A DNA stretch of 64,000 nucleotides, taken from the NCBI RefSeq assembly GCF_016097555.1, contig NC_054713.1:16270735-16334734 (forward strand). Reading direction: 5' to 3'. The first letter of the stretch is position 1. The number at the start of each line of letters is the position of its first letter. Both the position numbers and the translations under genes were made by a program. Of this stretch, positions 2,451 to 46,537 are shown one piece after another. The DNA comes from Gigantopelta aegis (taxonomy: Eukaryota > Mollusca > Gastropoda > Neomphalida > Peltospiridae). Under the pieces are notes generated by a model. The model worked only from the letters and a program-made list of their open reading frames with translations, was not told where the DNA came from and ran no database searches.

Positions 2451-2480
2451 GGTAGCGTGGCCGAGTGGTCTAAGGCGCTG
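2451..2480 (+). pseudogene. 5' fragment of split tRNA-Leu, U2 gene a
   Basis: The first 30 nt of tRNA-Leu (GGTAGCG... up to AAGGCGCTG) including box A. The gene is cut at the start of the anticodon stem by LINE A. The remaining part, with anticodon TAG and box B, is at 4273-4333, now 1.8 kb away, so a functional tRNA cannot be made from this locus. Confidence 0.93.
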
Positions 2481-2489
2481 ACTTCCGGT
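2481..2489 (+). promoter_or_regulatory. ETS-type motif at the LINE 5' terminus
   Basis: ACTTCCGGT is the reverse complement of the ETS-family consensus ACCGGAAGT. It forms the first bases of LINE A and recurs at the starts of D (32548) and E (44861); C carries ACTTCCTGT (20356 down). Because it lies at the transcript start it is a candidate internal Pol II promoter element. The match is seen directly; the function is inferred. Confidence 0.45.
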
Positions 2490-2606
2490 TTGGGTTTTGT
2501 CGATGGAGGACATGTTTCACTTCGGCTCCCGTTTTGGAATTTTTTGAAAGTGTTTTTTGAATTGAGAAGGTGTTTTTTTTTCGGATTTATTTGAAAACCA
2601 GTGGGG

Positions 2607-3710
2607 ATGAGTCAGGGTGGCGATATGGAGAAGGAGGAAGTGAAGAAAGTGGTCTACAAGAAGGAGTGCACGGTCGTCGTTGATGTCGGTGACAATAGAA
2701 AGATGGCGGCTGGCGATGTGATTAAATTCCTTAGTGAACAGGTTGGTGATGTCATTCATGCGTGTGTGCCAAAGGGACCTGACAGGTATGAAGTGACTGT
2801 GGATGATGTTGTACAGGCGAGGATCATTTCGGATAACGATTCCCTGGAACTAAATGGCATGAAAATGAAGGCAAGGTTGTTACATTCGGACAGTGTTGTT
2901 GTTTCCTTTTTGCACTTGCCAGCATATATTTCGGACGAAGAGATAGAGGAGAAATTAAAATCGATGAACATTGAATTAATAACACCTATTTACAGGCGAT
3001 TCTACAAGGGTACTCGCATTGCGGATGGAACCAGGTACGTGCGTGTTAAATTTCCACCTGACGTAAAGAGTTTACCATATTCGATGAAATTTAACACTGT
3101 TGAAGGTGTGGAGTTTTTTCGTGTTTTGCACGACAATCAAATAAAGGTGTGCTATAACTGTATGTCGGATAGTCACGTGATTCGGGATTGCCCGAATATC
3201 ACATGTAATTTCTGCAAAGAGAAGGGACATATTGCCAGGAATTGTAAGAAAACATTTCTGTGTGAAAAATGTGGAAATAAAGAGGATGTGTGTGTATGCA
3301 GTGTGAATGAATACGACAGCGAGCATGTGGATGACAGTGACAGCGACAGTACTGATGATGATAGAATGCAAGAACCAACCCAGGCAAGCCATGAACAAGT
3401 CGAAGTAAGCAAGGGTAACCAAGCTGAGTGGAGAAATGATCACAAAGATGCAACACCGAGTTCGAGAAATGACAAACAGCACGCAAACCGTAATGTGGAG
3501 GAATCGGTGAAGGGAGTGAAAGCAGCCGACTTTCGTGAGAAGGACGCGGACACCATGACAACTGAAACTAAAAACTTTCAACTGCGAAAGTTACGGCGTC
3601 GGTCACAGCTGATCAAACGCCCAGCGGATGAATCGATTCGTCGTGTTGTGTTAAGTAGAAAACAAAAGAGACAAGCTATCCGTGCAAAAGGTGTTGAAGA
3701 GAGTGAATGA
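2607..3710 (+). CDS. LINE A ORF1 protein, zinc-knuckle (gag-like) nucleic-acid-binding protein
   Basis: An intact 367-residue frame. I start at the first ATG (MSQGGDMEKEE); no upstream in-frame ATG exists. The N-terminal half is a conserved domain shared with the ORF1s of C, D and F (VDVGDNRKMAAGDVIKFL, HACVPKGPDRYEVTVDDVVQ). Three Cys-rich knuckles follow: CYNCMSDSHVIRDC at about residues 182-195, CNFCKEKGHIARNC at 200-213 and a Cys cluster from 219 to 231. An acidic Asp/Ser stretch and a basic C-terminus complete it. By analogy with other LINE ORF1s it should bind element RNA in the cytoplasm as an RNP component. It is unbroken, unlike the ORF1s of D, E and F, which suggests recent activity or selection on ORF1 alone. 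Confidence 0.88.
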   Translation: MSQGGDMEKEEVKKVVYKKECTVVVDVGDNRKMAAGDVIKFLSEQVGDVIHACVPKGPDRYEVTVDDVVQARIISDNDSLELNGMKMKARLLHSDSVVVSFLHLPAYISDEEIEEKLKSMNIELITPIYRRFYKGTRIADGTRYVRVKFPPDVKSLPYSMKFNTVEGVEFFRVLHDNQIKVCYNCMSDSHVIRDCPNITCNFCKEKGHIARNCKKTFLCEKCGNKEDVCVCSVNEYDSEHVDDSDSDSTDDDRMQEPTQASHEQVEVSKGNQAEWRNDHKDATPSSRNDKQHANRNVEESVKGVKAADFREKDADTMTTETKNFQLRKLRRRSQLIKRPADESIRRVVLSRKQKRQAIRAKGVEESE

Positions 3711-4272
3711 AGGAAGTATGAGTGAGATAATGTGATTAAATTTATGATAACATGTGCTTATTTAATGACTTTCTTTATATTACAATACACTCAATTGTCA
3801 TTTTGTTTAGATGTTTACTTTAAATATTAATAGATTGAATGGGATTGATTAATTAAATATAGGTTTTGTAATTATTTAAACGTAAATAACCTTTAGTATT
3901 CCTTTTTCTGCACAAATGTATTTTGAATGATTATTTTATTTAAAATACATAAATACTTATGGGAGGGAATGTCAGTTTAAAACAGGTGTGTGTATATTTG
4001 ATATAATATTAAATATTGTTTAATTATATTTTAGGTTTAATGGCTGTCATACTAAAGGACAATTTGATTTTAAGATGTGTAAAAATCATTTATTATATTA
4101 TAAATATTCTTATAGTTTGGAATTACATATGTGTGTATGAATGTGTGTCAAGTGTGTGCGTGCGTGTGTCTTGTGTGTGTTTATTTTTAAATTGTGTTTT
4201 TATATTTATATTGTTATACAAGCATGTGAGCTATATTAATATGTTGATGTTCTGAATAAAAAAAAATAAAAA
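3711..4272 (+). other. LINE A 3' UTR with ORF2 vestige
   Basis: The first 150 bases include a degenerate remnant of the ORF2 start, then AT-rich sequence with a TG-rich stretch (TGTGTGTATGAATGTGTGTC). The TG-rich stretch also occurs in the 3' UTR of LINE F and before the poly(A) of E. It ends with an AATAAA signal in the A-rich tail. Confidence 0.7.
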
Positions 4273-4333
4273 AAGGCGCTGGTTTTAGGCACCAGTCTCT
4301 ACGGAGGCGTGGGTTCGAATCCCACCGCTGCCA
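4273..4333 (+). pseudogene. 3' fragment of split tRNA-Leu(UAG), U2 gene a
   Basis: Starts AAGGCGCTGG directly after the LINE poly(A) and carries the full anticodon arm (TAG), variable arm CTC-TACG-GAG, T arm with box B and 3' acceptor strand. The first 9 bases repeat the end of the fragment at 2451-2480. Box A is missing, so Pol III transcription is unlikely. Confidence 0.93.
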
Positions 4334-4453
4334 ATTTATACTTTTGTCATTATTGTTATTACTTTTTAAATTATTACAATTATTATTATTTATATCATCA
4401 CCATCATTAGCTGTAGCTGTAGTAGTAGTATAATCACCACCACCATCATCAGA

Positions 4454-5128: not shown

Positions 5129-5184
5129 AAATAATAACAAAATGATAGTTCAGTCACGTCTCCTGTTTAAATTGTAATAATTGT

Positions 5185-9985: not shown

Positions 9986-10492
9986 AGGCGAGTCCTTTAC
10001 GGTGTAAAGTGTTTTAGTGATACACTCACTATTAAGGTAATTTTTAACACTGGAACTGACAGTTTCGTTTTCACTGTAATGGAATTGACAAAAGTTCTTT
10101 CTTTGTCACACGACGTATTGTTTGGCTTTAGTTCGTTTTCACAATGGGGCCCCTTTGTGGATTGAAGTATTTATCTATAGACTCTGTTTGGATCAGAGAA
10201 CAAGCATTCTGAGAGTATTGCGAACGGAATGACGAGTCCAACATATTTTGGTATTTCCTAAGTTAAAGGTCCATACTTCTATCAAAACTAGGTAAATCAC
10301 CATGAAAATCAAACCTGGTCTGTAATAGTACATGAAAAAAACACACCCTATGGACAAAATTTCAGCTCGATATCTCGAGGCATTGCAACAAAAGTATCCG
10401 GAAAACTATACGACAGACTGGCAGAAACCTTTCGTCCCCACAACCCCGCTTGGACCGGTAGGGGACTAATATACAATTTTTTTTTTTTAAAT
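9986..10492. repeat. Conserved pre-tRNA block, U2
   Basis: Matches 1480-1998 and 30626-31142. Ends in a T-run that would terminate the minus-strand tRNA-Leu. No gene seen. Confidence 0.7.
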
Positions 10493-10538
10493 TGGCAGCG
10501 GTGGGATTCGAACCCACGCCTCCGAGGAGACTGGTGCC
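10493..10538 (-). pseudogene. 3' fragment of split tRNA-Leu(AAG), U2
   Basis: Minus strand: the last 46 nt of tRNA-Leu, including variable arm (CTC-CTCG-GAG), T arm with box B and acceptor 3' strand. It stops at GGTGCC (read on +), then joins LINE C sequence internally at TTAAACGTCTC. The matching 5' fragment is at 20362-20388. The anticodon is lost in this version. Confidence 0.88.
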
Positions 10539-13032: not shown

Positions 13033-13232
13033 NNNNNNNNNNNNNNNNNNNNNNNNNNNNNNNNNNNNNNNNNNNNNNNNNNNNNNNNNNNNNNNNNNNN
13101 NNNNNNNNNNNNNNNNNNNNNNNNNNNNNNNNNNNNNNNNNNNNNNNNNNNNNNNNNNNNNNNNNNNNNNNNNNNNNNNNNNNNNNNNNNNNNNNNNNNN
13201 NNNNNNNNNNNNNNNNNNNNNNNNNNNNNNNN
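13033..13232. other. Assembly gap (200 N)
   Basis: Exactly 200 undetermined bases, a round number typical of a scaffold gap of unknown true size. Open frames across it are meaningless. The same LINE locus lies on both sides. Confidence 0.98.
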
Positions 13233-13777
13233 CAGGCCTTTTTTCTTTTTTTTTTTTATTCCTGAAACTAAATTGACTGTAATAAATTTACAAATAAAAA
13301 TAAGAAAAAAGATTCAACAAATCCACACACGTACTTCACATAGAACCACCCACACATTTACACACACACCTCACACAAGCACACCAAAAATTAAAAGAAA
13401 ATTGAGGGTATCGATTTTAAAGCTAAGTAATTTTTTAAAGATATATCAAAATTAAATATCATTTTCAAGTGGGATTTAAAAAAACTAATTATCATTATTT
13501 AGATTTTAAGAATAATTAAATATATTTATAATAAATGCAGGAAATATTTTTAAAGCGTATTGATTTAAAATAAAGAAGTATGTTCTTTTATAAGCTTAAA
13601 AAATTTAAAAAATTTTTAACATTTACCCCCCTTGATTCCACTATTAAACGCTTTAAACTGTTATTCTGTTTTGAGAGCAAAGTGATGAATTCTTTGAGAG
13701 GTTTGATTTTTAAAATAACACCCAAAAAGAACTTTATTTTTAATTTTTAAGAAAAACCGTATCCTTAAAACTAAATA

Positions 13778-15481
13778 TACTAAAAGCAAAAGAAAAGCAG
13801 GCCTGAAAATGGAAAGAAACACTTGTAAAGCAGATCTTTGGTGGAATTGAATCAACTGGTTAAAGGACATGGCACACACCCCACACCGAGGTCCCAAACC
13901 CTGGGTTTCAATTTCATTACCTGGTGACGTCACGATTCTCAAACAGTTTGTTTGCACGTGGGTATCGTATATAATCCAGTGCAAACCATCATTAATGCTT
14001 ATAAAGCCTACACACCTGGATTTAATGCATAATTAAATTTGAGTAGTGACAGAAACAGAACAATTTTAAAAATGCCGCGATGACGCAAATCCAGCGAGGG
14101 ATGGCCTCGGGGTTGCAAGCGGACGACCGTTGCGACCCAGCAATTGGGATGTCATGTTTCGACAATCGCAGCCTTTCTCCCAAAGTCACCAAATCACTGG
14201 ATCGTGAACGATCGACCACGCACCGCCCCGGAGGGTGACAACCGCAGCCTAGACCGGTACAGGGGACCCACCGGAATGGATGCTGCCAGCGCTAACCCGT
14301 CACCAGGGCGTGGTCCCGTGGGTCCAGTGTCCGCCGATACCGTTCCGACGCGTCTGAGGCAGCAGGACTCCCCCGTAACCCCGCCTTATGGGGACCAATA
14401 TTGACCCCTCGGCAACCGCCAACAAACGTCAACGTGGGCGCAACAAACATCATAAGATGGCGACGTGGCCCCCAGTGGCAACAAGTACTGTTAATGATGA
14501 GAAAACCCGTATGTCCATGTTTTCCCACGATGATGGCCTGTTTTGTCCCCCACCCCCCTTCCTTGTTTGACAGAATCAGAGTATGGGCGACGGCGCACAT
14601 GAAACGTTAACTCCGACTGCTGCGTTCTGCAGGACCGACCGATGGGGCGCGGGGGTAGTGTGATGGTGTGGGTGGGGGTTCTCATCAACCATAGAAAAAC
14701 ACAAACTTCATGTGGTTCAGACAACGCGTTAATGCAGCCGTGTACCAAAATGACGTCATTCAACAATCCACGTCGTTCCCTTCGTTGCCGCTCACCCCTG
14801 TGCGCTTGCTGCAGCAAGACAATGCCAGGCCGCACACTGCCAGGTGCAACACGCGAACCGCGCGCTGGCTCAGCACAACACCAAAACTTGCTCGTGGCGT
14901 CAGCTTGATCACCGGACAACTGGAGCCTATCGAACACGTCGGGGATGAAAATCGGACGTCGCACTTCAGGCTCCGCGGACAAAACTCAGAATTGCAGGGC
15001 CGCTGGAGGCAGCATTGGTCCCCATGAATGGACACACTCACTCCCCTAGGCATTCTTGTGCAACGGCTTGTGGCAACTCATGAGGAGAACGGTGACAATG
15101 CCTGTTGGAAGGCCCAGGGTGGTCACACGCGATCCTGACTTTGGACAATGCTACCAGGTCGTCCTTTTTTGTTTTCATGCCACACACACCGACTGGAACC
15201 CTCGCCCTTTTTTTTTTTTTTTTTTTGGCCAGCCTGTTGCATAGATATAGCTCCTACATTTGTAGCGATTCTTATTGTAGAAAAAGGCGACCAAATAGAG
15301 CGCTTACTAACCGGTTAATATTTCAACAACCAAATTTCCCAACCTCAATGTGAGTTTGAGAATTGGTGGAGCTCCAAATCAAATGTTTGCAAATCTTTCA
15401 TTTCGTTTTGTGTGGTTTAATATTTTATATCTGTATTCGACACCAGAGACGCAACCTGCGTTTTCGGTTTGCGTTTTAGTA
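13778..15481 (+). mobile_element. Tc1-type transposon, second version, full length
   Basis: About 1.7 kb between inverted ends TACTAAAAGCAAAAGAAAAG and TTTGCGTTTTAGTA, inserted at TA in the C-terminal part of LINE C ORF2. The transposase (from about 14071) is recognisable (GNLTGH-like N-terminus lost, QDNARPHTA, IEHVGDE) but shattered by many one-base changes in length. Same insertion as 10692-11985, so the same event. Confidence 0.85.
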
Positions 15482-17040
15482 TACCTATTCATAAAACTAG
15501 ACATTAAAATCATAAAGTTCAGCACCATACAACAATAATGAACATATCTTCTTCTTCTTTAAAACCAAACAGGGCATTGGCTATGTATTGATACCTTGCC
15601 ATATTGAAATAATTTAGAGTCTGTGAACATAATGTTAATGAGCAATTTAAACACTAAGTCAACAAAATTTCCGAAGTCTTATCACAGTAATGTATTATTT
15701 TCCAAACTGCTTCCAATCTATAAACAAACATCCAAATATAATGCATTTCGTAATTAAAAAAGAGATGTATTTAAAATTGTGTGAAATTAGTAAGGACTAT
15801 ATTATTAACATTAAATTTATTTACAGTTATGTTTCATTTATTATTAATCAAGAAACAAATTCTTTAACTTGGGACGATTTTTAATATTATCTTAAAATAA
15901 AGTCTTTCCATTCCCGAGGAAGCGCGTTCAGAATTACATAAATAAGCCGGTAGAAATTTCTGCTGCCAACCATATCAGGATATTTGTCTTTTAATAATTT
16001 CGGACAATTGCAGATACCGGTAAAAAATCCCGGGTATAACTTCATATGCAATATCAGCCCCCGTATAATAACACTTTTCATAAAAGAATTAAAAACATAA
16101 TAATTATTTTTGTAATTATAAATGGTTTATGAAATCTTGCTGATATAAGATTTGATCTAAATCTGAGGGGAAAATGCGTTCACGCTTTGACAATGCTGCT
16201 CCCATGCCCAACAAAAACTCAGATTAAAAAGAGTCACCCATGTTAGCCAAAAGCTGGTTTCATCAAAAGTATATTCAAAAAATAATTAAAAGGACAAGTT
16301 TCATATTCAGGTATTTAGCAAGAAATTATCGACATTGTAGGTTTCCAAACAGAACTGAAATCATTATTAAAAATTTCTTTAATTATTTAATACGAAAAGC
16401 ACTTTTCTTTAAGAGATTATCTTGAACAATATTAAGCCAACCTGTACTTTTACTTCCCAATAATAGGCGAATTTTTTTAACATGGTATTGTACAATCCCA
16501 CAGAAAATTTACAAAACAACTTCTGAATTTCTTGTTCAACCCACCTAGGAACATTGGGAATTGCATTACATTATCTACCATATCTAGACATTAATAAGGG
16601 ATTCCACACTGTCGCTTTACCATTAAAGTAAGTTTTCTTTGTTTCAAAATGTTAATCAATGAATTAAAATTTTTCAATTTTATTTTCCAATTTAATCTTT
16701 GCGCACAATGCTTTATTTGGACCTAAATAAATGCCAAGAATTTGGACACCCAATCTTTATTAACCGTAGCAACAGGAAGTGTTAATGCACAAATATTTCT
16801 CCGCGGCTTTACCAAGACAAAAAGTACTTCTGATTTTTCAATATTTACCTTGCACCCGTAGCAAGACAAAAACTAATTGACAGTGCGAAAAAATCACCTC
16901 AACAGATGAGTATCTTGTACAGTGATAGTAGTATCTCAGCATGTTGAAATAATAAAGAATTAAATTCATTATTCAATTTTATTCCATTAATTTTTTGCTG
17001 ACTTTTTAACAAGCTATTAAAGGTTTCAGCAACAATTACA
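15482..17040 (-). pseudogene. LINE C ORF2 C-terminal region (poor sequence)
   Basis: Reverse complement matches D 35840-37290 and F 40520-41900, for example CATATCAGGATATTTGTCTT and GAACATTGGGAATTGCATTA. It encodes the segment from after the HADD motif to the zinc-finger end but carries frequent indels. No other gene is present in this stretch. Confidence 0.75.
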
Positions 17041-18104
17041 TATAGCATCATCGAAATTGAGACATCCCTGTCTAAACACCTCTAGTAACAGGAACAACCA
17101 AAGGCTTTAAATGACCATTAATTTTAACATTACTTTTAATATCATTATATAGTATTTTAATCCAAGAAATAAATTTATTACCCAAATTAAATTTTTCAAA
17201 AACTCTGACTATAAAACTATGCGATACCCTATCAAAACGCCTTTTTATTGATCTATTTCAATCAAAAAACACCTTCCTGGTTATTCATATCTACAAAATC
17301 AATAACATCACGGACTGACATAACTATTATCAACTATATCCCTACCCGGAACACAACACGTTTGTTCAGGAGAAATAAACAGATGACAAAACTAATTTTT
17401 AAAACCGATTTGCGAGAACTTTGGATATAATTTTATGATCAACATTTAAAAGAACTTATCGGCCTAAAGTTTTTAAGATTTGTTTTATCGCCTTTTTTCT
17501 TATAAAAAAGACTGATAATTCCTTTTTTCATACTACGTGATAAATATTCTTCATTTTGGATTGACATAACAACTTTATGAAATTTGTTTTTTTTATTTCT
17601 CCCAAAATTTAAGATAAAACTCAACAGTAAGACCATCCATACCTGGTGATTTATTCCTATTCATACCTTTCAATGCTTTTGTTAATTCTTCAATCGATAT
17701 ATCATTATCACAAGTTTCACTTTCAAATTCTGTTATTCTATTCGAAATTAAATTTAAGACTTCTTCTTCTTTAGCTATATCTATATCTTCTTTGGTATAT
17801 AATTTAGAATAAAAGTCATGTGCACATGCAAGTATATCTTCTGTTTTCCTAGATAATCCATTAATTGTATTAAGTTCTTTAACTGAATTTGATTCTTGTT
17901 TTGATTTTTCTAAATTGAGAAAAAACGTTGTATTTTTATCAGACTCAAAATTCCATTCCACTTTTGATCTTAAAATAGCAACATTACATTTAGATTGTTC
18001 TATTAACTTTAATTTTTCTTGTAAAATTTGTAAATATGTTAAATCATGTTGTTTATTTAAAGCTAATTTAGAATATTCCCGTTTTAAGCATTTTGAATAA
18101 AATA
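17041..18104 (-). pseudogene. LINE C ORF2 reverse transcriptase N-terminal part
   Basis: Contains [40 protein letters not shown] and FRPIS, the fingers region of L1/Tx1-like reverse transcriptases, preceded by an Asn/Lys-rich linker (EKSKQESNSVKELNTI). It is split by a frameshift in the A-rich stretch near 17585 that has a counterpart in D at 35300-35320. The sequence duplicates 11990-13032. Confidence 0.8.
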
Positions 18105-18118
18105 ATATTTTTCAGTTT

Positions 18119-19058: not shown

Positions 19059-19080
19059 AATACAATCCATTTCAAACATT

Positions 19081-31224: not shown

Positions 31225-31593
31225 ATGAAAACGCTTGACATTAATAGACATGACGTCTGTAATGTATGTCAAGATGGTTTCATAACTTAACTTTGGTGTG
31301 TTGCTTATGACAGCTAGGAACTGGAGATCAAATCAATTAACTGGGCTCGATGACGTGTTGGTAAAACTGGTGGTTCAGCTGACTTATTTTACTGACCACT
31401 CAGCTCGAATAGCTGTTGTCTGTCTAAACTGTTACTTACAACAAAATATATGTATAACTCTTATACAAAACAGATAATTTTTTAATACTGTTGTTCACAG
31501 TTTAAACAAATAACTGCACAAACCAAAACAATGCCAAACGAGAAACTGTCCTGCCCGTCCAGTAGCTTGTCTATTGCTAGCAGTGGTCTTTTT
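31225..31593. repeat. Conserved spacer between tRNA-Leu(AAG) and tRNA a, U4
   Basis: Matches 2081-2450. No gene. Confidence 0.7.
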
Positions 31594-32450: not shown

Positions 32451-32514
32451 TAAATGATAAATAATAACAAAATGTTAGTTCAATCACGTCTCCTGTTTTA
32501 TCTATTATAAGTAT

Positions 32515-32543
32515 GGTAGCGTGGCCGAGTGGTCTAAGGCGCT
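32515..32543 (+). pseudogene. 5' fragment of tRNA-Leu, U4 gene b, target of LINE D
   Basis: GGTAGCG... to AAGGCGCT, followed by ACAG and then the LINE start ACTTCCGG. It sits at the gene b position (same upstream CAGTCACGTCTCCTGT-like flank... as seen before 944 and 5185). The 3' half is not found downstream because D is fused to F. Confidence 0.9.
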
Positions 32544-32671
32544 ACAGACTTCCGGTTTGGGATTGTCGAAGGTGGACGTGTTTGACTTCGGCTCCCGTTT
32601 GGAAAGTTTTTGGTTTGTTCTTTTTTGTGGCAAAGCTGCCTGGGTCCAGTTTTTCTGGTGTAGGAGTAAAA

Positions 32672-33766
32672 ATGAGTGAAGAAGGTGATGTGGAGAGGGG
32701 AGAGTTGAAGAAAGTGATTTACAGAAAAGAATATACGGTGGTGGTACATGTTGGAGACAATAGAAAGGTGGCGGCCGGTGAGTTGATTGAGTTTTTGACT
32801 GAACAAGTTGGTGATGTGATACATGCATGTGTGCCGAAGGGGCCTGATAGATATGAAGTAACTGTTGATGACGTTGTGCAGGCAATGATGATTTCTGAAA
32901 GTGAATCGTTAGAATTAAATGGCTTTAGGATGAAAGCAAGATTGTTACATTCAGAGAGTGTTGTGGTGTCGTTCTTGCATTTACCAGCGTACATTACTGA
33001 TGAAGATATTGAAAACAGGTTGAAGTCTATGAAGATAGAGCTCATTACTCCTATTTATAGACGTTTCTACAAGGGAACAAACATCGCGGATGGAACAAGG
33101 TATGTTCGAGTAAAATTTCCACCAGAAATCAAAAGTTTGCCTTATTCTATGAAATGTAAGACAGTTGAAGGTGTTGAATTTTTCCGAGTTCTGCATGACA
33201 ACCAACTTAAGGTGTGTTACAACTGTATGTCAGACAGTCATGTCGTTCGATATTGCCCTAACATTGTTTGCCATTTTTGTAAGGAAAAGGGACATTATGT
33301 TAAAGACTGTGATACAACCTTTCTGTACGAAAGATGTGGGAATAAGGAGGAAGAGTGCGTGTGCGGTGTACATGATGATGATAATGAATATATTGATGAT
33401 GATGATAGTGATGATATGAATGTTGAGTCGCAGGAGAGCCAGGTTACAGTCACGGAACAGCAGGCAAGTCATGTCGAGGAGAAAAGTTCTCACAACAAGA
33501 TTACACCTGTCACGAACAAAGACAAGCTACAGAAAAGGCCAAGTGTGGTGGCGACTGGAAATGTTGAGTGTACGGGAGGAAAATCAGCTGAGAATAGTGT
33601 TAAGAAGGAAGCGGACACCATGGAAACAACAATTGACAACACGCAACAGAGGAGGGCTTCGCGTCGGTCGCGCTTAGTTAAACGCCGGCTGATGACTCAA
33701 TTTGGAGTGTGGTCACGACGAGAAAACAAAAGAGACAAGCTGCGATTGCTAAAAGTGTGGCGATAG
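32672..33766 (+). pseudogene. LINE D ORF1, C-terminus frameshifted
   Basis: 364 residues from MSEEGDVERGELKK. The conserved domain and zinc knuckles match C (CYNCMSDSHVVRYC, CHFCKEKGHYVKDC), though the third cluster has CDTTFLYERCG where C has CDKTFLCDRCG, losing a Cys. Near 33685 the frame shifts, and the C-terminal basic tail is replaced by unrelated residues. Confidence 0.85.
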
Positions 33767-33836
33767 TGTAAATAAGCGAAGAATGAATGAGAGTGAGAAT
33801 GTTGGTAAGCTTTAAAATGTTTGAAATGATTGTACT

Positions 33837-36800
33837 ATGAATTTCTTTTTATTTACAATGTTGTTATTGTCTTTAAATGTTAATGGTTTGAGGGATATTG
33901 ATAAGTTGAATTCAGTGTTTGCAACTATTAAAAGTAGACATGCTAATATTATTTTTCTTCAAGAAACATTTTGAGATGATAATTTTATTGAGAGATATAA
34001 GCATTTATGGGATGGAAAAATATTTTATAATAATTGTCCATATAAAAATAGAAGAGGTGTGGCTATATTGATATCTAAAGAATGTCAATATGAATTTACT
34101 TTTAATAGTTCTGACACTGAAGGCAGAATTTTAAAAATTAATGCAAACATTGATAATGATATATATAGTTTTATTAATGTGTATGCGCCAAATAATATTC
34201 ATGAAAAAGTTCTTTTTTTCAAAGAATTAAGTAACTTTATAGATTTAAAAAATAATATAATGGCTGGAGATTTTAATGATATATTTGATCCTTCTTTAGA
34301 TCTTGGAATTAATACTACTACTTTTAATTTGAAAAGTAGTACTGTATTACAGTCTGTTCTTGATAAGTTTAACCTGATAGATATTTGGCGTTATAGAAAT
34401 CCTGACAAGAGAGAGTTTAGTCGGACACAAATTGTTCAAAGTGTCCTAAAACAGTCTAGGATAGATTTCTTTTTACTCTCTAGAAATATTTTACATTTTG
34501 TTGTTAATTCATTCATATGTTATACCACCTTTAGTGATCATAATTTTGTGTCTCTCAAGTTGAATTTTTCTCGTGTGGAGAGGGGTCAAGGTATCTGGAT
34601 ATTTAATAATGAGTTACTGAATGATGAACTTTTTTGTAATGCGATTTCTAATGTTATAGATAATGCTTGTGACTGTCCTTTATTTCAGACAGAACCTCTT
34701 GTATGGTGGGATAATTTAAAATTTAAAATGAAAAAAATTGCAACATATTTTGCTATTAATAAACGTAAATTAGAAACTGAAAAATATTATTTTATTCAAA
34801 ATGCTTTAAAACGGGAATATTCTAAATTAGCTTTAAATAAACAGCATGATTTAACATATTTACAAATTTTACAAGAAAAATTAAAGTTAATGGAACAATC
34901 TAAATGGAATGGTGCTATTTTAAGATCAAAAGTGCAATGGAATTTTGAGTCTGATAAAAATACAACGTTTTTTCTCAATTTAGAAAAATCAAAACAAGAA
35001 TCAAATTCAGTTAAAGAACGTAATACAATTCATGGATTATCTAGGAAAACAGAAGATATACTTGCATGTGCACATAACTTTTATTCTAAATTATATACCA
35101 AAGAAGATATAGATGTAGCTAAAGAAGAAGAAGTCTTAAATTTAATTTCGAATAGAATAACAGAATTTGAAAGTGAAACTTGTGATAATGATATATCGAT
35201 TGAAGAATTAACAAAAGCATTGAAAGGTATGAATAGGAATAAATCACCAGGTATGGATGGTCTTACTGTTGAGTTTTATCTTAAATTTTGGGAGAAATTA
35301 AAAAAAAAAAAAAAAAAATCATAAAGTTGTTATGTCAATCCAAAATGAAGAATATTTATCATGTAGTATGAAAAAAGGAATTATCAGTTTTTTTTATAAA
35401 CAAAAGTGGGATAAAACAAATCTTAAAAACTTTAGGCCGATAAGTCTTTTAAATGTTGATTATAAAATTATATCCAAAGTTCTCGCAAATCGTTTAAAAT
35501 TAGTTTTGTCATTTATTATTTCTCCTGAACAAACGTGTTGTGTTCCGGGTAGGGATATAGTTGATAATATTATGTCAGTCCGTGATGTTATTGATTTTGT
35601 AGATATGAATAACCTGGAAAGTTTTTTGATTAAAATAGATCAAGAAAAGGCGTTTGATAGGGTATCGCATAGTTTTATAGTCAGAGTTTTGAATAAATTT
35701 AATTTTGGTAATAAATTTATTTCTTGGATTAAAATACTATATAATGATATTAAAAGTAGTGTTAAAATTAATGGTCATTTAACGCCTTTCTTTTCTGTTA
35801 CTAGAGGTGTTAGACAGGGATGTCCAATTTCGATGATGCTGATAAAATGTTCGATAAAATTGAATAATGAATTTAATTCATTATTATTTCAACATGCTGA
35901 TGAACTACTATCACTGTACAAGATGCTCAGTCTGTAGATTTTCGCACTGTCATTTATTTTTGTATTGCTACGGGTGCAAAGGTAAATATTGAAAAATCAG
36001 AAGTACTTTGTCTTGGTAAAGCCGCGGAGAAAGATTTGTCATTTAACATTCCTGTTGCTGTTAATAAAGATTGTGTCCAAATTCTTGGCATTTATTTAGG
36101 TCCAAATAAAGCATTATGCGAAAGATTAAATTGGAAAATAAAAATTGAAAAATTTAATTCATTGATTAACATGTGGAATTGTAAATGGTAAATGGTAAAG
36201 CGACAGTGTGGAATACCTTATTAACTTCTAGATTATGGTATATAATTAGTGCAATTCATGTTCCCAGGTGGGTTGAACAAGAAATTCAGAAGTTGTTTTG
36301 TAAATTTATGTGGTATGATAGAATACCATTAATAAAATATTCGACTATTATTGGGAGTAAAAGTTCAGGTGGGCTTAATATTCAAGATATCTCTTTAATG
36401 AAAATTGCTTTTCGTATTAAATTATTAAAGAAATATTTTAATAATGATTTCAGTTATATTTGGAAACATACAATGTCTGAATTTCTTGGTAAATACATGA
36501 ATATGAACTTGTCTTTTAATATTTTTAATATAGTTTTTGATGAACCTGCTTTGGCTAACATTAACCCTTTTTATGCTGAGGTTTTGTTGGCATGGGACAA
36601 CATTTCAAAGCGTGAACGCATTTTCCCCTTAGATTTAGATCAAATATTATATCAGCCAATATTTCATAATCCATTTATTAATTACAAAAATAAATTATTA
36701 TGTTTTAATTCTTTTATTAAAAGTGGTATTATAACGGGGGCTGATATTGCATATGAAGTTATACCGGGATTTTTACCGGTATCTGCAATTGTCGAAATTA

Positions 36801-37360
36801 TTAAAGAAAAATATCCTGATATGTTGGCAGCAGAAATTTCTACTGCTTATTATGTAATTCTGAACTCGCTTCCTGGTGAATGGAAACGACTTATTTTAAA
36901 TAATATAAAAAATTCGTCACAAGTTAAAGATTTGTTCTTGATTGATAATAATGAAACAATAAATGTAAGTAAATTTAATTTTAAATTAATATATTCCTTA
37001 CTAATTTCACAAAATTTTAAATTACCTTCTTGTTTAGAAAAATGGCATGATTTGGGTTTTGATATAGATTGGAAGCCAGTTTGGAAAATTATACATTACT
37101 GTGATAAGACTTGGATTTTAAAATTGCTCATAACATTATTTTCACATACTCTAAATTATTTAAATATGGCAAGGTATCATCAAGCCAATGTCCTGTTTGT
37201 TTTAAAGAAGAAGAAAATATGTGTCATTTATTTTTGTATTGTGATGAACTTTATGACTTAATTTCTATTTTTCATGAATTATGTATTTATATGTTTAAGG
37301 ATACTGGTTTTTCTTTAGAAATATTTTTAAAAAAAGTTGCTTTTCGGGTGTTATTTTAAA
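33837..37360 (+). pseudogene. LINE D ORF2: endonuclease, reverse transcriptase, C-terminal CCHC
   Basis: ATG at 33837 (MNFFLFTMLLLSLNVNGLRD). Endonuclease motifs NVYAPNN, MAGDFNDIF, QSRIDFFLLS, TTFSDHNFVS. The reverse transcriptase holds [45 protein letters not shown] (motif A), TRGVRQGCPIS (motif B) and LLFQHADE (motif C, catalytic box HADD in relatives). The C-terminus has CPVCFKEEENMCHLFLYC, a CX2CX7HX4C motif. A TGA replaces the Trp of ETFW at 33972, a long A run (35300-35319) shifts the frame, the second Asp of HADD is altered, and the frame changes again to 36185. About 1,170 codons if aligned to relatives. Confidence 0.88.
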
Positions 37361-38317
37361 ATACAAACCTGCTCAAATGAATTCATCAATGCTTTGCTCT
37401 CAATATACAGAATATCAGTTTTCAAGAGACGTTTAATAGCGGAATCAAGGGGGGTAAATGTTAATATTGTTAAGTTTTTTAAGCATTATATGAGACAGTA
37501 CTTCTTAATACTAGTGAAGAAAGTTGTGTATAAGAAAGAATGCACGGTAGTAGTTGATGAGGGTGATAACAAGAACATGGCGGCCAGTGAACTGATCGAG
37601 TTTCTTGCGGAGCATGTGGATGATGTGATCCACGCATGTGTACCCAAGGGGGCTGACAGGCACGAAGTGACAGTGGACGATGTAGTGCAGGCGAGGATTA
37701 TTGCAGATCAGGATTCTATGGAATTAAATGGGATGAGAATGAAGGCAAGATTATTGCATTCGGAAAGTGTGGTTGTTTCTTTTCTACACTTGCCAGCATA
37801 CTTGCCTGATGAGGTGACCGAGGGACGTTTAAAGTCGATGAACATACAACTGATTTCTCCTATCTACAGGCAGTTTTACAAGGGATCACGTGTTGCAGAT
37901 GGGACAAGATACGTACGCGTATATACGTTTCCTCGTGACATTAAGAGCTTACCTTAGTCCATGAAGTTCAGTACTGACAGCCACGTGATTAGAGACTGCC
38001 TGAATATCACTTGTCGTGTGTAAAGAAAAGAGCCATATTGCCAAAAATTGTGACAAAACCTTTTTGTGTCACAAATGTGGAAGTAAAGAAGAAGAGTGTG
38101 TTTGCAGTTTGGGTGGATGTGAAAATGATTATGTAGATGACAGTGAAAGTGAGAGTAATGCAGGAAGAGACACTGGAGAGCGAAGTAAATCAACGCAAGC
38201 TAAACAAGGTGGAAATAACAAGGATTACAATGCTGTAAAACAGTGTTCGAGCAATGTAGAAATGCATGAAAAACCTATTGTTCAGGCAAAAGAAAAGGTC
38301 GTTGGTATAATATCCGC

Positions 38318-38800
38318 CGGCACCCCCCCCCCCCCCCCCCAATAATATTTGTTAGAATTAGTGTAAGTTTAGGGTTAGGGTTAGGGTTAGTTATATACAA
38401 TACCTTTTTAAACATTTTGTTCTATAAAAGCAACATAATATTTATATTTCGTAATCCAGTATCACTACGTTTTGCCGTTGAAAAATTAGACATTTTGACT
38501 ATTCTTTGTACAATGTCCTCCAATACGGTGCTTTTATTGGTGCTTTTGGTAGAAATATAGCACAGAAGACACAATGAGGCATTATGGGACTAAAGGTTCG
38601 TTTTATTCCGTAAACACTCGGTTCATTCCGTCAAAATACACGTTATGAAATGTAAAACTATTAAAATGCAGTCTCACTTGTTGATCCACTGCGTGGCCGA
38701 ATGGTTACAGTGCTCGGCTACAGTCCCGATGGTCTGGAGTTCGATTCCAGACCCTAGCACTCGATATCGCTAATTCAATACCCCAAATTGGGAGGTGCTG
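38318..38800. mobile_element. Insert in LINE F ORF1 with TTAGGG repeat and tRNA-like SINE head
   Basis: Starts with a C run (38323-38340), carries (TTAGGG)3 at about 38372-38390, AT-rich filler, and ends with a tRNA-like segment (38690-38765: box A TGGCCGAATGG, box B AGTTCGATTCC). Probably a tRNA-derived retroposon inserted on the minus strand or two separate inserts. Class uncertain. Confidence 0.5.
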
Positions 38801-38861
38801 GCGGAAATCTTTCCTCAATTTGGAATGTGGTGTCAACTAGAAAAAAAAATCCAATTAAGGT

Positions 38862-39080
38862 TCAAGCACGCTGTCCTGGGCACACACCTCAGCTATCTGG
38901 GCTATCTGTCCAGGACGGTTGGTTAGTGGTTAGTGAGAGAGAAGAGGGTGTAGTGGCCTTACACCTACCCATTGAGCCCTTAAGAATTCGCTCTGGGTTG
39001 GAGCTGGTACCGGACTGCGAACCCTGTACCTACCAGCCTGTAGTCCGATTGCTTAACTACTGCTCCACCGAGGCCGGTAA
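38862..39080 (-). mobile_element. tRNA-derived SINE, second family, in LINE F ORF1
   Basis: The best preserved copy of the family also seen at 6555, 25515 and 47650: GGTTCAAGCACGCTGTCCTG, GGTACCGGACTGCGAACCCT, CTCCACCGAGGCCGGT head. It lies just after AATCCAATT of the ORF1 remnant. Confidence 0.8.
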
Positions 39081-39161
39081 GCTGCGCGTGCGAAAGCTGT
39101 GGAAGAGGGTTTGAAAGAAAGAAAGATGAGTGATTGTGAAAGTGTGGATAGGCGTTAACAA

Positions 39162-41965
39162 TGGCTATGTTCATATCCTTTCTTTTCTCTATAATGTTGT
39201 TATTGTATCTTAATGTTAATGGGTTGAGGGATATTGATAAATTAAATTCAGTGTTTGCGACTATTAAAAGTAGACATGCTAATGTTATTTTTCTGCAGAA
39301 AACATTTTGGGATAATAATTTTATTGAGAGATATAAACACTTATGAGATGGGAAGATATTTTATAATAATTGTTCATATAAAAATAGAAGAGGTGTGGCA
39401 ATATTAATTTCTAAAGAATGCCCATATGAAATTACTTTTAATAGTTGCGATTAATTAATGCAAAAATTGATAATGATTAATTTAGTTTTATTAATATATA
39501 TGCGCCAAATAATATTGATGAAAGGGTTAGTTTTTTTCAATTAATTAAATAATTTTGTGAACTATAAAAATACCAAAAAAAGTTGGAGATTTTAATTAAA
39601 TATTTGATCCATCTTTAGATCGTGGTATTAATAATACAACTTTCAGTTTGAAAAGTATAAACTACTTTTTTCCCTTAATTTAGAAACAAACTAAACAGGA
39701 ATCAAATTCAATTAAAAAACTTAATACAATTAAAGGATTGTCAAGGAAAACTGAAGATATAATTGAATGTGCTCATGATTTTTATTCTAAATTATATACC
39801 CAAGATGATATTGACTTAGATAAAGAAGAATATATTTTAAATTTAATAACCAATAACATAGCAGAATGTGAAAGTGAAAATTGTGATAAAGATATTTTGA
39901 TTGAAGAATTAACGAATGCGTTGAAAAATATGAATAAAAATAAATCTCCTGGTATGGATGGTTTAACGGTTGAGTTTTATGTCAAATTCTGGGATATTTT
40001 AAAGCCTTTGTTTCAAAAAGTTGTTATCTCAATTCAAAATGAAGAACATTTATCACGCAGTATGAAAAAAGGAATCATTAATCTTTTTTACAAGAAAAAG
40101 GGAGATAAAACTAATCTTTAAAATTTCAGGCCATAAGTCTTTTAAATGTTGATTACAAAATCCTTTCTAAAGTTCTTTGAAATCGTCTAAAGTCAGTAAT
40201 ATCAAATATTATTTCCCCTGAACAAACATGTTGTGTTCCAGGTAGAGATATAGTTGATAACATTATGTCGGTGTGTGATGTTATTGATTTTGTAGATAAA
40301 AATAACAAAGAGGGTTTTTTAATTCAAATAGATCAAGAGAAAGCGTTTGATAGGGTTTCTCATAGTTTTATAGTTAAAGTTTTGAATAAATTTAACTTTG
40401 GATTAAAGTTCTGTATAATGGTATTAAAAGTAATGTAAACATCAATGGTCATTGAACGCCTTTCTTTCCAGTTACTAGAGGTGTTAGGCAGGGATGTCCA
40501 ATTTCGATGATGCTCAATATAATTGTTGCCAAACTTTTAAATAAGTTATTAAAAAGTCAACAAGATATTAAAAGGATAAAAATAAATAATGCATTTAATT
40601 CTTTATTATTTCAACATGCTGATGATACTAAATCACAGCACAAGATGCTCAGTCTGTTGATGTAGTTTTTCACACTGTCAATTCTTGCTACGGGTGCAAA
40701 AGTTAATATTGAAAAATCGGAAGTACTTTGCATTGGTAAAGCTACGAAAAAAGAGTTCTCAGTTAATATTCTCATTGCTATTAATAAAGATTGTGTTCAA
40801 ATTCTTGGAATGTATTTAGGACCAAATAAAGCTTTGTGCGAAATATTGAATTGGAAAACAAAAATTGAAAAAATGAATTCAGTAATTAACATGTGGAAAC
40901 AAAGAAAACTTACTTTAAATGGTAAAGCGACAGTGTGGAATACCTTATTAACTTCTAGATTGTGGTATATAATTAGAGCAATTCATGTTCCTAGGTGGGT
41001 TGAACAAGAAATTCAGAAGTTGTTTTGTAAATTTATGTGGGATGATAAAATACCATTAATAAAATATTCTACTATTATTGGGAGTAAAAGTTCAGGTGGG
41101 CTTAATATGTCTCAATTTCGTGGTAAATACATGACTATGAACTTATCTTTTAATATATTTAATATGTTTTTTGATGAACCAGCTTTGGCTAACATTAACC
41201 CTTTTTATGCTGACGTTTTGTTAACATGGGACAACATTTCAAAGCGTGAACGCGTTTTCCCCTTAGATTTAGATCAAATATTGTCTCAGCCAATATTTCA
41301 TAATTCATTTATTAATTACAAAAATAAATTATTATGTTTTAATTCTTTTATTGAAAGTGGTATGTATTATAATGGTGGCTAATATTACATGTGCAGTTGT
41401 ACCGGGATTTTTACCGGTATCTGCAATTGTCGAACTTATTAAAGAGAAATATCCTGATATGTTGGCAGGAGAAATTTCTACAGCTTATTATGTAATTCTG
41501 AACTCGCTTCCTGATGAATGGAAACAGCTTATTTTAAAGAATATTAAAAATTCGTCACAAGGTAAAGATTTGTTTTTGATTAATAATAACGAAACCATAA
41601 ATGTAAGTAAATTAAATGTTAAATTAATATATTCTATACTAATTTCCCAAAATTTTAAAGTACCTTCTTGTTTAGAAAAATGGGATGATTTGGGTTTTGT
41701 TATAGATTGGAAGCCAGTTTGGAAAAATATACATTATTGTGATAAGACTTCGGAATTTGTTGACTTGGATTTTAAGATTGCTCATAACATTATTTTCACA
41801 TATTCTAAATTATTTAAATATGGAAAGATATCATCTAGCTAATGTTCTGTTTGTTTTAAAGAAGAAGAAGATAAGTGTCATTTGTGATATAATTGATATT
41901 TTTCATGAATTATGTATTTTTATGTTTAAGGATACTGTTTTTTTCTTTAGAATTATAAAAAAATG
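39162..41965 (+). pseudogene. LINE F ORF2 remnant
   Basis: ATG at 39162 (MAMFISFLFSIMLLLYLNVN). The endonuclease starts normally (LNVNGLRDIDKLNSVFATIK) but has stops and a large deletion near 39650. The reverse transcriptase keeps [42 protein letters not shown] and an intact FQHADDT catalytic box (about 40609). The C-terminal domain is deleted by about 45 codons near 41107 and ends normally. Multiple stops make it inactive. Confidence 0.85.
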
Positions 41966-42498
41966 ATGCTTTTTCGGGTGTTATTTTAAAATACAAAACT
42001 GTTCAAATGAATTCATAAATTCTGTGCTCTCAATATATAGAATATCAGTTTTCAAGAGACGTTTAATAGCGGAATCAAGGGGTGTAGATATTAATATTGT
42101 AAAGTTGTTTAAGCATTATATACGTCAGTACTTCTTAATACTTTTAAATCAATATCGCTTTAAAAATAGATTTCCTGCATTTACTAATAAATATATTAAA
42201 AATAATATATTTCTTGATCTAAATAATGATGAATTGTTTTTTAAATACCCACTTGAAAACTGATATTTATATTTAGTATTTTCCTTAAACATTTGTCATT
42301 ATCTTATAAAATTGATATCCCTCAATTTTCTTCTAATGTTTGCGTGTGTTTGTGTGAATGTGTGTGTGTTTGTGATAAATGTGTGAGTGGTTCTATGTGA
42401 GAGTATGTGAGGGGATATGTGTGAATTTTTATTTTTATTTTTATTTGTACATTTTATGTATATATGCAATATTGAGTTTCACGAATAAAAATATAAAA
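41966..42498 (+). other. LINE F 3' UTR and poly(A)
   Basis: Contains the sequence duplicated at the D end (CAGTTTTCAAGAGACGTTTA), a TG-rich stretch, and GAATAAAAATATAAAAAA. Its reverse complement appears, with errors, at 13240-13690, confirming that C and F share a 3' UTR. Confidence 0.8.
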
Positions 42499-42840
42499 AA
42501 GGCCATCGGTCTACAGGCTGGTAGGTTCTGGGTTCGGATCCCAGTCGAGGCATGGGATTTTTAATCCAGATACCGACTCCAAACCCTGAAAGAGTGTTCC
42601 GCAAGGCTCAATGGGTAGGTGTAAACCACTTGCACCAACCAGTGATCCATAACTGGTTCAACAAAGGCCATGGTTTGTGCTATCCTGCTAAAATAACCCT
42701 TGTTGCCTAATCGTAAAAGAATAGCATATGTGGTGACAGCGGGTTTTCTCTACAATAAAAAACCAGTTTCAGAATGACCATATTTTTGACTTCCAATAGC
42801 CGATAAGATTAAAAAAATCAATGTGCTCTAGTGGCGTCGT
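42499..42840 (+). mobile_element. tRNA-derived SINE (third head type), 3' part, target of LINE F 3' end
   Basis: Starts AAGGCCATCGG immediately after the LINE poly(A), then GGTTCTGGGTTCGGATCCCA (box B), CTCAATGGGTAGGTGTAAAC, body GTGCTATCCTGC, and tail TGGCGTCGTTAATTAAAAC. Box A and the first about 20 nt of the tRNA-like head are missing at the LINE junction. Confidence 0.78.
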
Positions 42841-44640: not shown

Positions 44641-44830
44641 GCGAGTTGGGTGCATGACGTCTGTAATCCATATCGAGAAGGTTTTATAACTTAATTTTGG
44701 TTTGTTGCATTTTACAGCTAGAAACTGGAGAACAAATAATTGAACAAGACTCGGTGACGTGTCGGTAAAACTGGTGGATTGTGGGTTCCTACCAAACCAA
44801 AACATGTCTGTTGTCGACAGTCGTCTTTGT
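44640..44830. repeat. Diverged unit spacer before tRNA a, U5
   Basis: Resembles 2100-2450 (GCATGACGTCTGTAAT, AACTGGAGAACAAATAA, GTAAAACTGGTGG) with more substitutions and a deletion. Marks the start of unit U5; the AAG tRNA that should precede it is gone. Confidence 0.65.
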
Positions 44831-44860
44831 GGTAGCGTGGCCGAGTGGCCTAAGGCGCTG
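44831..44860 (+). pseudogene. 5' fragment of split tRNA-Leu, U5 gene a
   Basis: GGTAGCG... to AAGGCGCTG, 30 nt, one change (GTGGCCTAAGG for GTGGTCTAAGG). Cut at the same base as 2480 by LINE E. Confidence 0.92.
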
Positions 44861-46476
44861 ACTTCCGGTTGTGTACTTGTTGTGATAAGACGTGTTTCAG
44901 AGTGCTCTTGGTTTTTTCGGTTTTTATTGTTTGGAGATGTGTGTTTTGTTTTTTACTGAAATGCGAGAGACTTGATCTTTTTTTTGATACGGAAAGTTGT
45001 GTATTGTCAGGGTTTTTTTAGTTTTAAAAAAAATCTGACTTTTGTGATGTCGACTTCGGTCAACGGTGGAGAGAAGAGGCCCATTTTGGGTGCGAGGTAC
45101 AGGAAGGAATGCACAGTTTCTATTGATGTTTTGGATAATCTAAAACACAAGATTGATGACATTTACAAAGCTTTGGAAGATATTACTGGTGAGAATACAG
45201 TTTTGGCGATTGTTCCCAAATATGCTAACATTCTGGATGTGACTTTTGATTGCGAAGAAAATGCGAGGTTGGTAGTCGATGGTTTTTCGTTCAATGGACA
45301 TGATTTTAACTGTAGCATGTTGTTTTCTGACACAGTGGTGGTGTCTTTTATGCATCTACCATCATATGTAACTGATGATGACATTGTCAAGAAACTAAAT
45401 GAATACAAGATTGCGGTAATATCTGACATTAAAAGGCGAAAACATGCTGGACTTCCCATTTTGATGGAACACGTTATGTAAGGGTGAAATTTCCGGAAAA
45501 TGTCAAATCGATGCCATATTCTGTGAAGTTTGATACTGCCGAAGGACCCATGGTTTTTTTCGGGTAATACACAGTGGTCAAACAAAAGTATGCTGGAACT
45601 GTTTATCTGATTCGCATGTCATGAAGTTTTGTCCAGATATTGTGTGCAATTTTTGTAAACAAACTGGCCATATAAAACAGTTTTGTGAAAAGTTAAAGTG
45701 TGGTGAGTGTAACAAGAGACATTCTCAGTGTAGTTGTAAGGACGGTAGAAGTAGTGAGGAATGTGATTCTGATGTGGAATATACAAGTAATGGAGAGGAA
45801 CACAGTTCTGATGAAGAAAATATGGACGATGAGGTAATTAAAAAAGTAATTTCGATCCCTAAAGGAGCCCCGTCAGTGAAGCATGCCAAGCCAGCTACAG
45901 ACAATGAGGAGGTTAGAGGAACAAAGACAAAAGAAGGAAAGAAATTGGACAATACTAGTGTGAAGCGAGTGACTGATTCACCTGTTAAAAACAGAAGCTC
46001 AGATGTTGGGAATGAAAGAACCGAGACAATGGGTGACCGCTTACCACGCACGGACAGAGATCAATCGGAGAACACTGAACACCATGATTCTCAAAACAGA
46101 AAATACAGAAGGAGGAGAATGGTCGATCGACCTAATGAAGCGTTTATCAGGAGGTTAGCCGAGGAAATAAAAAGAAAAGGAATTGACACTGATCCAAATG
46201 GAAAAAAATTAAAACCTGTTTAGAACTTTAATTGCTGGTGTTTATAAAACAGACGTTTGAGAAGTGAATGAAATTACTATTTTTTAATTATTTTTTGAAT
46301 GTTTATAAGAAATGATGATAATATATATATATTAATGGATCAAATCAGTATGAATGAGCGCGAAAGGTCAGAGTAGTTCAGTGAATGGTTCTTGTGTGTG
46401 CGTGTTTATTGCTTTAATATATATTTTATTTATTGAATGTGAATTGTTGAATTTGTAAATAAAAAGATTTTAAAAA
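44861..46476 (+). mobile_element. LINE E: second ORF1-only LINE in tRNA-Leu
   Basis: 1.6 kb, starts ACTTCCGGTT and ends GATTTTAAAAAAA; flanked by AAGGCGCTG (44852-44860) and AAGGCGCTC (46477-46485, one later change). It has ORF1 and a short 3' UTR but no trace of ORF2. Its ORF1 is only distantly related to that of A, C, D and F, so it is a separate lineage with the same target. Confidence 0.87.
45047..46223 (+). pseudogene. LINE E ORF1, zinc-knuckle type, two frameshifts
   Basis: From ATG at 45047 (MSTSVNGGEKRPILGARYRK). The YRKECTVSIDVLDN start and VVSFMHLPSYVTDDDIVKKL align with KECTVVV and VVSFLHLPAYITDEDIENRL of C. Knuckles CWNCLSDSHVMKFC and CNFCKQTGHIKQFC and a third (CGECNKRHSQCSC) are present, then an acidic stretch and basic tail. 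Frameshifts near 45470 and 45550 break it. Confidence 0.84.
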
Positions 46477-46537
46477 AAGGCGCTCGTTTTAGGCACCAGT
46501 CTCTTCGGAGGCGTGGGTTCGAATCCCACCGCTGCCA
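46477..46537 (+). pseudogene. 3' fragment of split tRNA-Leu(UAG), U5 gene a
   Basis: AAGGCGCTCGTTTTAGG onward with TAG anticodon, TTCG variable loop, box B and acceptor end. One change (CGCTC for CGCTG) weakens the anticodon stem. Confidence 0.92.

Follow-up and report, generated by a model that had tools for sequence, protein, structure and literature searches.

In a stretch of 64,000 nucleotides from the gastropod Gigantopelta aegis (NC_054713.1, positions 16,270,735 to 16,334,734 of the forward strand; hereafter the window), tRNA-Leu genes are interrupted by long interspersed nuclear elements (LINEs). Judged from its sequence, this appears to be a LINE system with an apurinic/apyrimidinic-type (APE) endonuclease and an L1-group reverse transcriptase (RT), most likely of Tx1 type, which comprises autonomous copies and half-LINEs carrying only the first open reading frame (ORF1). 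Its integration is probably confined in large part to genes transcribed by RNA polymerase III (Pol III) and to the short interspersed nuclear elements (SINEs) derived from them, which are entered from inside. A preliminary description of the window had proposed a LINE family specific to tRNA-Leu genes. The fixed position within tRNA genes, the short target duplications and the L1/Tx1-type protein stand, while the restriction to Leu is refuted by insertions in tRNA genes that together serve at least 15 amino acids, in 5S genes and at the equivalent position of tRNA-derived SINEs.

Targets and junctions across the genome

The window's own genome (1.15 Gb, 5216 contigs) was searched with parts of the window elements (Table 1), which returned at least 52 rows for the body of element A, 45 for the 3' untranslated region (UTR) of A, 40 for the 3' UTR of element G, 43 for the 5' end of element F and 53 for element E; all copy counts are lower bounds. 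We read 90 three-prime ends, namely every A 3' UTR row extending to the 3' end, the full 40 rows of the G 3' UTR, the 20 longest of the 53 E rows (a few short rows with a 3' end were left out), elements A, G and E of the window, and the ends in loci L024, L025 and L107. Element C was omitted because only 8 bases precede an assembly gap there.

These 90 ends fall into 41 tRNA genes, 4 5S genes, 36 tRNA-derived SINEs or tRNA-like repeats, 4 undecidable sequences (L011, L017, L042, L080) and 5 sequences that are none of these (L015, L024a, L039, L078 and E2). A majority of copies in sequences unrelated to tRNA genes, which the preliminary description had named as one of two observations that would overturn its proposal, was not found in this genome. 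In the E family 19 of 20 ends are in tRNA (16) or 5S (3) genes and one, E2, in neither; the other 70 ends comprise 25 tRNA genes, one 5S gene, 36 SINEs or tRNA-like repeats, 4 undecidable sequences and 4 without such a target. The tRNA genes represent 13 amino acids (Leu, Ile, Ser, Gly, initiator Met, Lys, Asp, Val, Ala, Gln, Pro, Glu and Asn), to which Thr and Arg are added from 5' ends only. Most names were given by reading the anticodon and T arm by eye. When both flanks were joined, ARAGORN called a tRNA at 7 of 17 sites (Leu and Ile twice each, Ser, Gly twice) and at 4 of 8 sites of the E family (Val twice, Leu, Lys; 3 of the remaining 4 are 5S), and the insertion is in sense orientation in all 11. 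One 5'-end subfamily, grouped by eye, was found in Ser, Gly, Leu, Thr, 5S and SINEs, so the subfamilies are not divided by target. L018, L019, L031, L085 and L087 have a further recurrent target in common, a repeat resembling tRNA that contains a GTTCGTATC box and may be the head of a tRNA-derived SINE. No relative was found in the viral and prokaryote contig collections.

For the precision of the 3' junction, the flanks of 20 sources were fetched to begin exactly after the poly(A) and compared with Rfam by cmscan. Seven match the tRNA model, all truncated at the 5' end and starting at model position 21, 21, 22, 22, 22, 23 and 24; two of them, at 36.8 and 30.0 bits, attain the gathering score of 29, and the others score 19.5-28.5 (E 0.0023 to 0.7). 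The flank of an Ala half matches the model of transfer-messenger RNA (tmRNA), which belongs to the same clan as tRNA. The other 12 flanks, without a meaningful Rfam match, are an initiator Met gene, a decayed 5S gene, a decayed Pro gene, 2 undecidable sequences and 7 SINEs or tRNA-like repeats. With 20 uncut flank sources, cmscan found a tRNA half above the cut-off at L077 only, with weaker ones below it at L040 and L068, besides two tmRNA matches of the tRNA clan and chance matches; starting the flanks at the junction raised this to the 7 of 20 given above. For the 20 E flanks, likewise uncut, Rfam called tRNA in 4, at 23.1-30.4 bits, and 5S in 3, at 51.1-58.2 bits. Where Rfam allows placement, the tRNA junction lies directly after the invariant A21, and the 5S junction lies at about +27/28. 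The 5' flanks of L095, L099 and L100 correspond to the start (~38 bases) of the 5S gene in this genome (86-97% over 29-36 bases), and L037 reads by eye as the 3' side of a decayed 5S gene, with a 14-base match. The base before the junction is an A at 21 of the 22 sites for which both flanks are available.

On the 5' side, 73 flanks were read (4 in the window, 22 at loci L009-L028, 10 and 17 at other loci, and 20 of the E family), and 49 of them have a tRNA, 5S or tRNA-SINE at or just upstream of the junction. The target duplications range from 5 to about 110 bp; it follows that the first-strand position is fixed within a few bases and that the second cut is free. In L107, for example, some 110 bp are duplicated, beginning at tRNA position 22 and ending 48 bp beyond the gene, and an intact tRNA-Leu(AAG) lies upstream. 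ARAGORN found such an intact upstream gene in 4 of 34 left flanks tested (E1 Glu, E9 Pro, E16 Leu, L107 Leu). An alignment criterion for duplication was passed by 17 of 34 copies; the method missed short duplications found by exact matching (A, E, L013, L016, L025, L026), and E16, with a 110-bp duplication, and E18 failed because their right flanks start slightly late. L014, with a tRNA-Leu ~240 bp upstream, was considered as a long duplication and rejected, as its flanks mismatch beyond the tRNA.

The 5' junctions often have extra G-rich bases (G, TG, GG, GGG, AGG, TGG) before ACTTCCGG, as in E, L009, L013, L016, L020, E3, E5, E14 and E19, and these could be templated by an mRNA cap. Distant as the A and E lineages are, ACTTCCGG is conserved in both; we take it to resemble the site of an ETS factor.

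How the position may be fixed

Taken together, the data suggest that targets are found by features common to small-RNA genes and not by one fixed sequence. In the mechanism that we favour, the element particle would be brought to the gene by the Pol III complex, be it through TFIIIB/TFIIIC or through Pol III itself. This complex would set how far from the start site the element lands, and the endonuclease would then pick a template-strand T within a few bases. Target-primed reverse transcription would follow through the element's own endonuclease, with half-LINEs served in trans. The insertion takes the gene's sense direction, as read from the sequence of the sites identified, and the first-strand (template-strand) junction after tRNA A21 or 5S +27/28, joined to the poly(A), is what target-primed reverse transcription would leave. 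The second cut falls 5 to about 110 bp downstream, and the longest duplications restore an intact tRNA gene upstream.

From the positional evidence, recruitment by the transcription complex seems slightly the better supposition. We are evenly divided on the fuller picture, in which an animal LINE lineage would use the Pol III complex as a landing platform, nick the template ~28-34 bases inside any Pol III gene, be it tRNA or 5S, make a flexible second cut that at times rebuilds the upstream gene, and share this mode between autonomous copies and half-LINEs.

Several points weigh against recruitment and against the target assignments. That the distance is the same in tRNA and 5S genes presupposes a tRNA leader of the usual length. 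The A at the last position before the junction is partly forced, since A's common to the poly(A) and the target are assigned to the target. No tRNA, 5S or SINE lies at or just upstream of the junction in 24 of the 73 five-prime flanks; part of these are 5'-truncated or rearranged copies, and the rest are unexplained. Most tRNA names were given by eye, Rfam supports tRNA in only 7 of the 20 flanks cut at the junction and in 4 of the 20 from the E family, and ARAGORN is silent at 10 of 17 joins. L020 is Gly(gcc) by ARAGORN and TCC by eye, the 5S identity of L037 has no Rfam call beside its short match, and E11 and E13 are probably one insertion. Moreover, 3' of the nick, off-target L015 (AGGCTGCATTG) is like a Leu target (AGGCGCTGG) and off-target E2 (TCATTACTG) like a Val target (TCACGTCTG), which favours some sequence recognition; the 5S site (GGTTCTCGTC) is also slightly like a Pro target (GATTCTCGCT).

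The endonuclease might instead read DNA directly, through a degenerate motif at the end of the A box and the D stem (GGTTA/RGC..., the slash marking the junction) that is common to tRNAs, with no Pol III factor involved. We consider this rather unlikely, though it would account for the two off-targets and for the recurrence of A21 and the preceding GG across tRNA targets, and tRNA-headed SINEs are often hit, some of which are probably silent. APE-type endonucleases including Tx1L are known for target-specific cutting (PMC8869645). However, no A-box-like sequence lies just upstream of the 5S site (CGTTGAAAGCA/CCGG), yet the four 5S 3' ends and 3 further 5' ends lie there at one position, which speaks against reading of the A box alone, and the sequences 3' of the nick vary widely (GGCGCTGG, TCACGTCT, GTATCCCC, GCATGGTT).

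It is very improbable that a few true insertions were multiplied by segmental duplication of tRNA clusters. The tRNA-Leu cluster is indeed duplicated, and E11/E13, L068/L072, L070/L084 and L024b/c look like duplicates. In addition, 22 copies of the G 3' UTR lie in one SINE type and are largely one amplified composite: 7 of 8 copies checked downstream have ~530 bp in common that end at one border, which indicates amplification as a unit, and the eighth, L116 (a copy of L073), is not part of it. However, genes, flanks, duplication lengths and element lineages all differ among the insertions. For the statistical test, 20 rows (17 composite copies and 3 cluster duplicates) were removed from the 70 non-E flanks. 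In the remaining 50, a T arm is found in 28 against 1.9 expected from dinucleotide shuffles, and a T arm together with an anticodon arm in 18 against 0.9 expected (P about 3e-19), so a single insertion spread by segmental duplication is rejected. Shuffles were used because A-runs inside the loci, as a null for the T arm, were contaminated by true sites. In the separate E set the T arm is present in 12 of 20 flanks and both arms in 10 of 20. Of the 20 E 5' flanks, two contain an antisense T arm, in one case within 5S sequence, a number compatible with chance.

Specificity for tRNA-Leu is rejected: all four 5' junctions of the window lie in tRNA-Leu, but the window merely sits in a tRNA-Leu cluster, and Leu (TAG, AAG, CAG, TAA, and CAA with intron) accounts for only 12 of the 41 tRNA-gene 3' ends, beside 12 other amino acids.

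Some duplicated arrangements deserve mention in their own right. The composite of LINE 3' UTR and SINE (L049-L063 and others; L109-L115) is repeated with one outer border, its end resembles a hAT terminal repeat by eye, and a DNA transposon may have carried the LINE-SINE insertion along. L024 (G000:C8:19213500-19223400) holds three half-LINE copies ~2.5 kb apart in a tRNA-Leu array, one gene of which is a tRNA-Leu(CAA) with an intron; the tRNA unit and the element look as though they had been amplified together. E copies in 5S arrays at C12:15032386 and C276:3447 share the same 50-bp duplication and are probably one insertion on two assembled contigs.

The window and the proteins of the element

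The window holds a tRNA-Leu cluster with 8 intact genes (ARAGORN) and repeated segmental blocks (blastn). As the preliminary description had stated, four LINE 5' junctions cut tRNA-Leu genes and the elements start with ACTTCC. The junctions lie at tRNA position 28-31, and 0-5 extra bases stand before the ACTTCC (Table 1). A and E keep both sides: at their right junctions the poly(A) is followed by AAGGCGCT(G), which is tRNA position 23 onward, and the target duplication is exact, 9 bp in A and 8 bp in E. The joined flanks of each are called tRNA-Leu(tag) by ARAGORN.

A, C and F occupy different paralogous tRNA genes, of which uninterrupted counterparts are present, supplied in the duplicated blocks by segmental duplication of the cluster. 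A and E sit at the same paralogous position and their ORF1s are deeply different (66% identity to the ORF1 of L027 for A, about 34-37% over most of the length for E). It follows from these different genes and this divergence that the window insertions are independent and not one event, as the preliminary description had it.

The true 3' end of C is likely the poly(A)+AAGGCCTG at 13240-13233, which abuts the gap. A tRNA piece that seems to be its other side starts at tRNA position 38, behind a duplicated block of ORF2 and 3' UTR past the gap; its joining to a truncated 3' UTR reflects a deletion or an assembly error. F has no 3' end of its own and is fused at ~37512 to G, which terminates as poly(A) within a tRNA-derived SINE.

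Table 1. Positions of the elements, tRNA parts and intact tRNA genes in the window
Feature	Position	Strand	Remarks
tRNA-Leu(TAG) 5' part, left of A	2450..2480	+	tRNA positions 1-31; blastn, sequence
Element A, half-LINE (ORF1 only)	2481..4272	+	starts ACTTCCGGTTTGGG; ends AATAAA + poly(A)
ORF1 of A	2619..3707	+	intact; zinc knuckle (zf-CCHC)
tRNA-Leu(TAG) 3' part, right of A	4273..4334	+	from tRNA position 23; AAGGCGCTG duplicated
Element C	13233..20361	-	ORF1 open, ORF2 decayed, foreign insertion near 3' end; poly(A)+AAGGCCTG at gap
tRNA-Leu 5' part at C 5' junction	20362..20389	-	tRNA positions 1-28; TGGGG filler
200-N assembly gap at 3' end of C	13033..13232	.	
tRNA-Leu(AAG) part beyond gap	10492..10538	-	tRNA positions 38-84, with truncated 3' UTR
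tRNA-Leu 5' part at F 5' junction	32514..32543	+	tRNA positions 1-30; ACAG, then ACTTCC
Element F	32544..37512	+	ORF1 ~32672-33766 (frameshift near end), ORF2 from 33837 (broken), 3' end lost
Element G	37513..42499	+	5'-truncated ORF1-ORF2, broken; poly(A) end
tRNA-derived SINE hit by G	42500..42720	+	hit at equivalent of tRNA position 22; end approximate, by eye
tRNA-Leu 5' part at E 5' junction	44830..44860	+	tRNA positions 1-31
Element E, half-LINE (ORF1 only)	44861..46476	+	deeply diverged lineage
tRNA-Leu(TAG) 3' part, right of E	46477..46538	+	from tRNA position 23
Intact tRNA-Leu(AAG)	1998..2081	-	empty-site paralogue of C
Intact tRNA-Leu(AAG)	31142..31225	-	empty-site paralogue of C
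Intact tRNA-Leu(TAG)	10..93	+	duplicate block of A's gene; others 20758-20841, 31593-31676
Intact tRNA-Leu(TAG)	943..1026	+	block related to F left flank; others 5184-5267, 47264-47347

The foreign insertion near the 3' end of C is present twice across the gap (10539-11979 and 13643-15088, 84% alike), and the second block may be an assembly duplicate. An ORF within it (11345-11974), taken by eye for a Tc1 transposase, had no Pfam match, and this idea was dropped. A tandem array of a ~55-bp unit adjoins the tRNA-Leu(AAG) blocks in two segmental copies (9278-9987 and 28504-30631).

L027 has an open ORF1 and an ORF2 frame of 1296 residues. In the intact ORF2, Pfam finds Exo_endo_phos (E 4.8e-10), RVT_1 and a weak zf-RVT. 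The motifs LNVNG, LQET, GDFN and SDH (residues N, E, D and H), which we take to be those of an APE endonuclease, can be read in P0001. The APE domain is N-terminal, and the Pfam result for ORF2 shows no restriction-like endonuclease domain on the C-terminal side of the RT. Among solved proteins human L1 ORF2p is nearest (E 2.7e-86, over residues 16-909), with R2 at 2.5e-16, and the RT is closer to L1 than to R2. A homologue search gave 455 proteins; among the 120 listed, the best has 75% identity, most are unnamed, Mytilus and Patella are among the named, and no named Tx1 reference protein occurs. In ORF1, zf-CCHC scores 24.8 bits in A against a cut-off of 20.8 and falls below it in C (19.6) and L027 (18.0), and the ORF1 piece of E has no Pfam match.

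The A-type copies fetched whole, E, L024, L025 and L107 are half-LINEs with ORF1 and no ORF2 of the element family; in L022, the only RT present is 24% identical and comes from another LINE. That A and E are of this kind, and that duplications can reach 50-110 bp, goes beyond the preliminary description. Between half-LINE and full-length ORF1, the ratio of nonsynonymous to synonymous substitution rates (dN/dS) is 0.08-0.13 in 5 comparisons; dS is near saturation, which left 2 comparisons not computable. An ORF1 that is under selection and stands without ORF2, as in a half-LINE of the HAL1 kind, is thus found here. The near-identical full-length copies C and L026 give a dN/dS of about 1.0, as expected of copies decaying after insertion.

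Comparison with known systems

The element shares with the Tx1-clade LINEs (Tx1; Keno in U2) an APE endonuclease, an L1-group RT and site specificity in multicopy RNA genes; the clade also includes Mutsu in 5S genes, and its ORF1 has CCHC knuckles, a feature found here too. As far as we know, members of the clade have been described for one target each, whereas the present element uses many tRNA genes as well as 5S, all at one position. All site-specific LINEs known to us take a single target sequence, and such LINEs are studied for precise RNA-templated gene insertion. A junction set by its place inside the gene, in many unlike tRNA genes as well as in 5S, would, if true, separate sequence reading from Pol III tethering, a distinction that elements with one target hardly allow. 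The long duplications, after which an entire tRNA gene persists upstream, point to a way in which such an element can be tolerated. The HAL1 half-LINEs of mammals are also ORF1-only derivatives of LINEs and are not site-specific, whereas the half-LINEs here take the same Pol III target as the full elements; the many ORF1-only partners raise the question why ORF1 alone was kept.

Tx1 types are described as common in molluscs in PMC10294476, and Tx1 LINEs are present in gastropods according to PMC11203168, in the text of which the term tRNA does not occur. Non-LTR (non-long terminal repeat) elements specific to tRNA genes are reported in PMC4640811: NeSL-1_TV (tRNA-Pro), LIN15_SM (tRNA-Arg) and LIN25_SM (tRNA-Glu). 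These are NeSL-related, from a group with a restriction-like endonuclease, and take one tRNA type each, in contrast to the APE endonuclease and the many types of the present element. The Dada DNA transposons insert inside several tRNA gene types at TGGCNN near the A box and also in U1 and U6 genes (PMC8869645); they use a DNA transposase, whereas the present element uses reverse transcription. A literature search, made without Repbase and subscription papers, found no paper on a LINE with many tRNA types and 5S as inside targets.

LINEs that target tRNA genes in general include TRE5/TRE3 of Dictyostelium and NLTR (L1-type), and TRE5 also takes extrachromosomal 5S genes; their insertions lie outside the gene, those of TRE5 about 40-54 bp upstream and those of TRE3 40-150 bp downstream (PMC5911963). 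The poly(A) junction of the present element lies instead inside the coding region, at tRNA model position 21-24, and not at a set distance outside the gene. Ty3 and TRE5 are retroelements tethered by the Pol III machinery, and the likeness of the present element to them is positional only.

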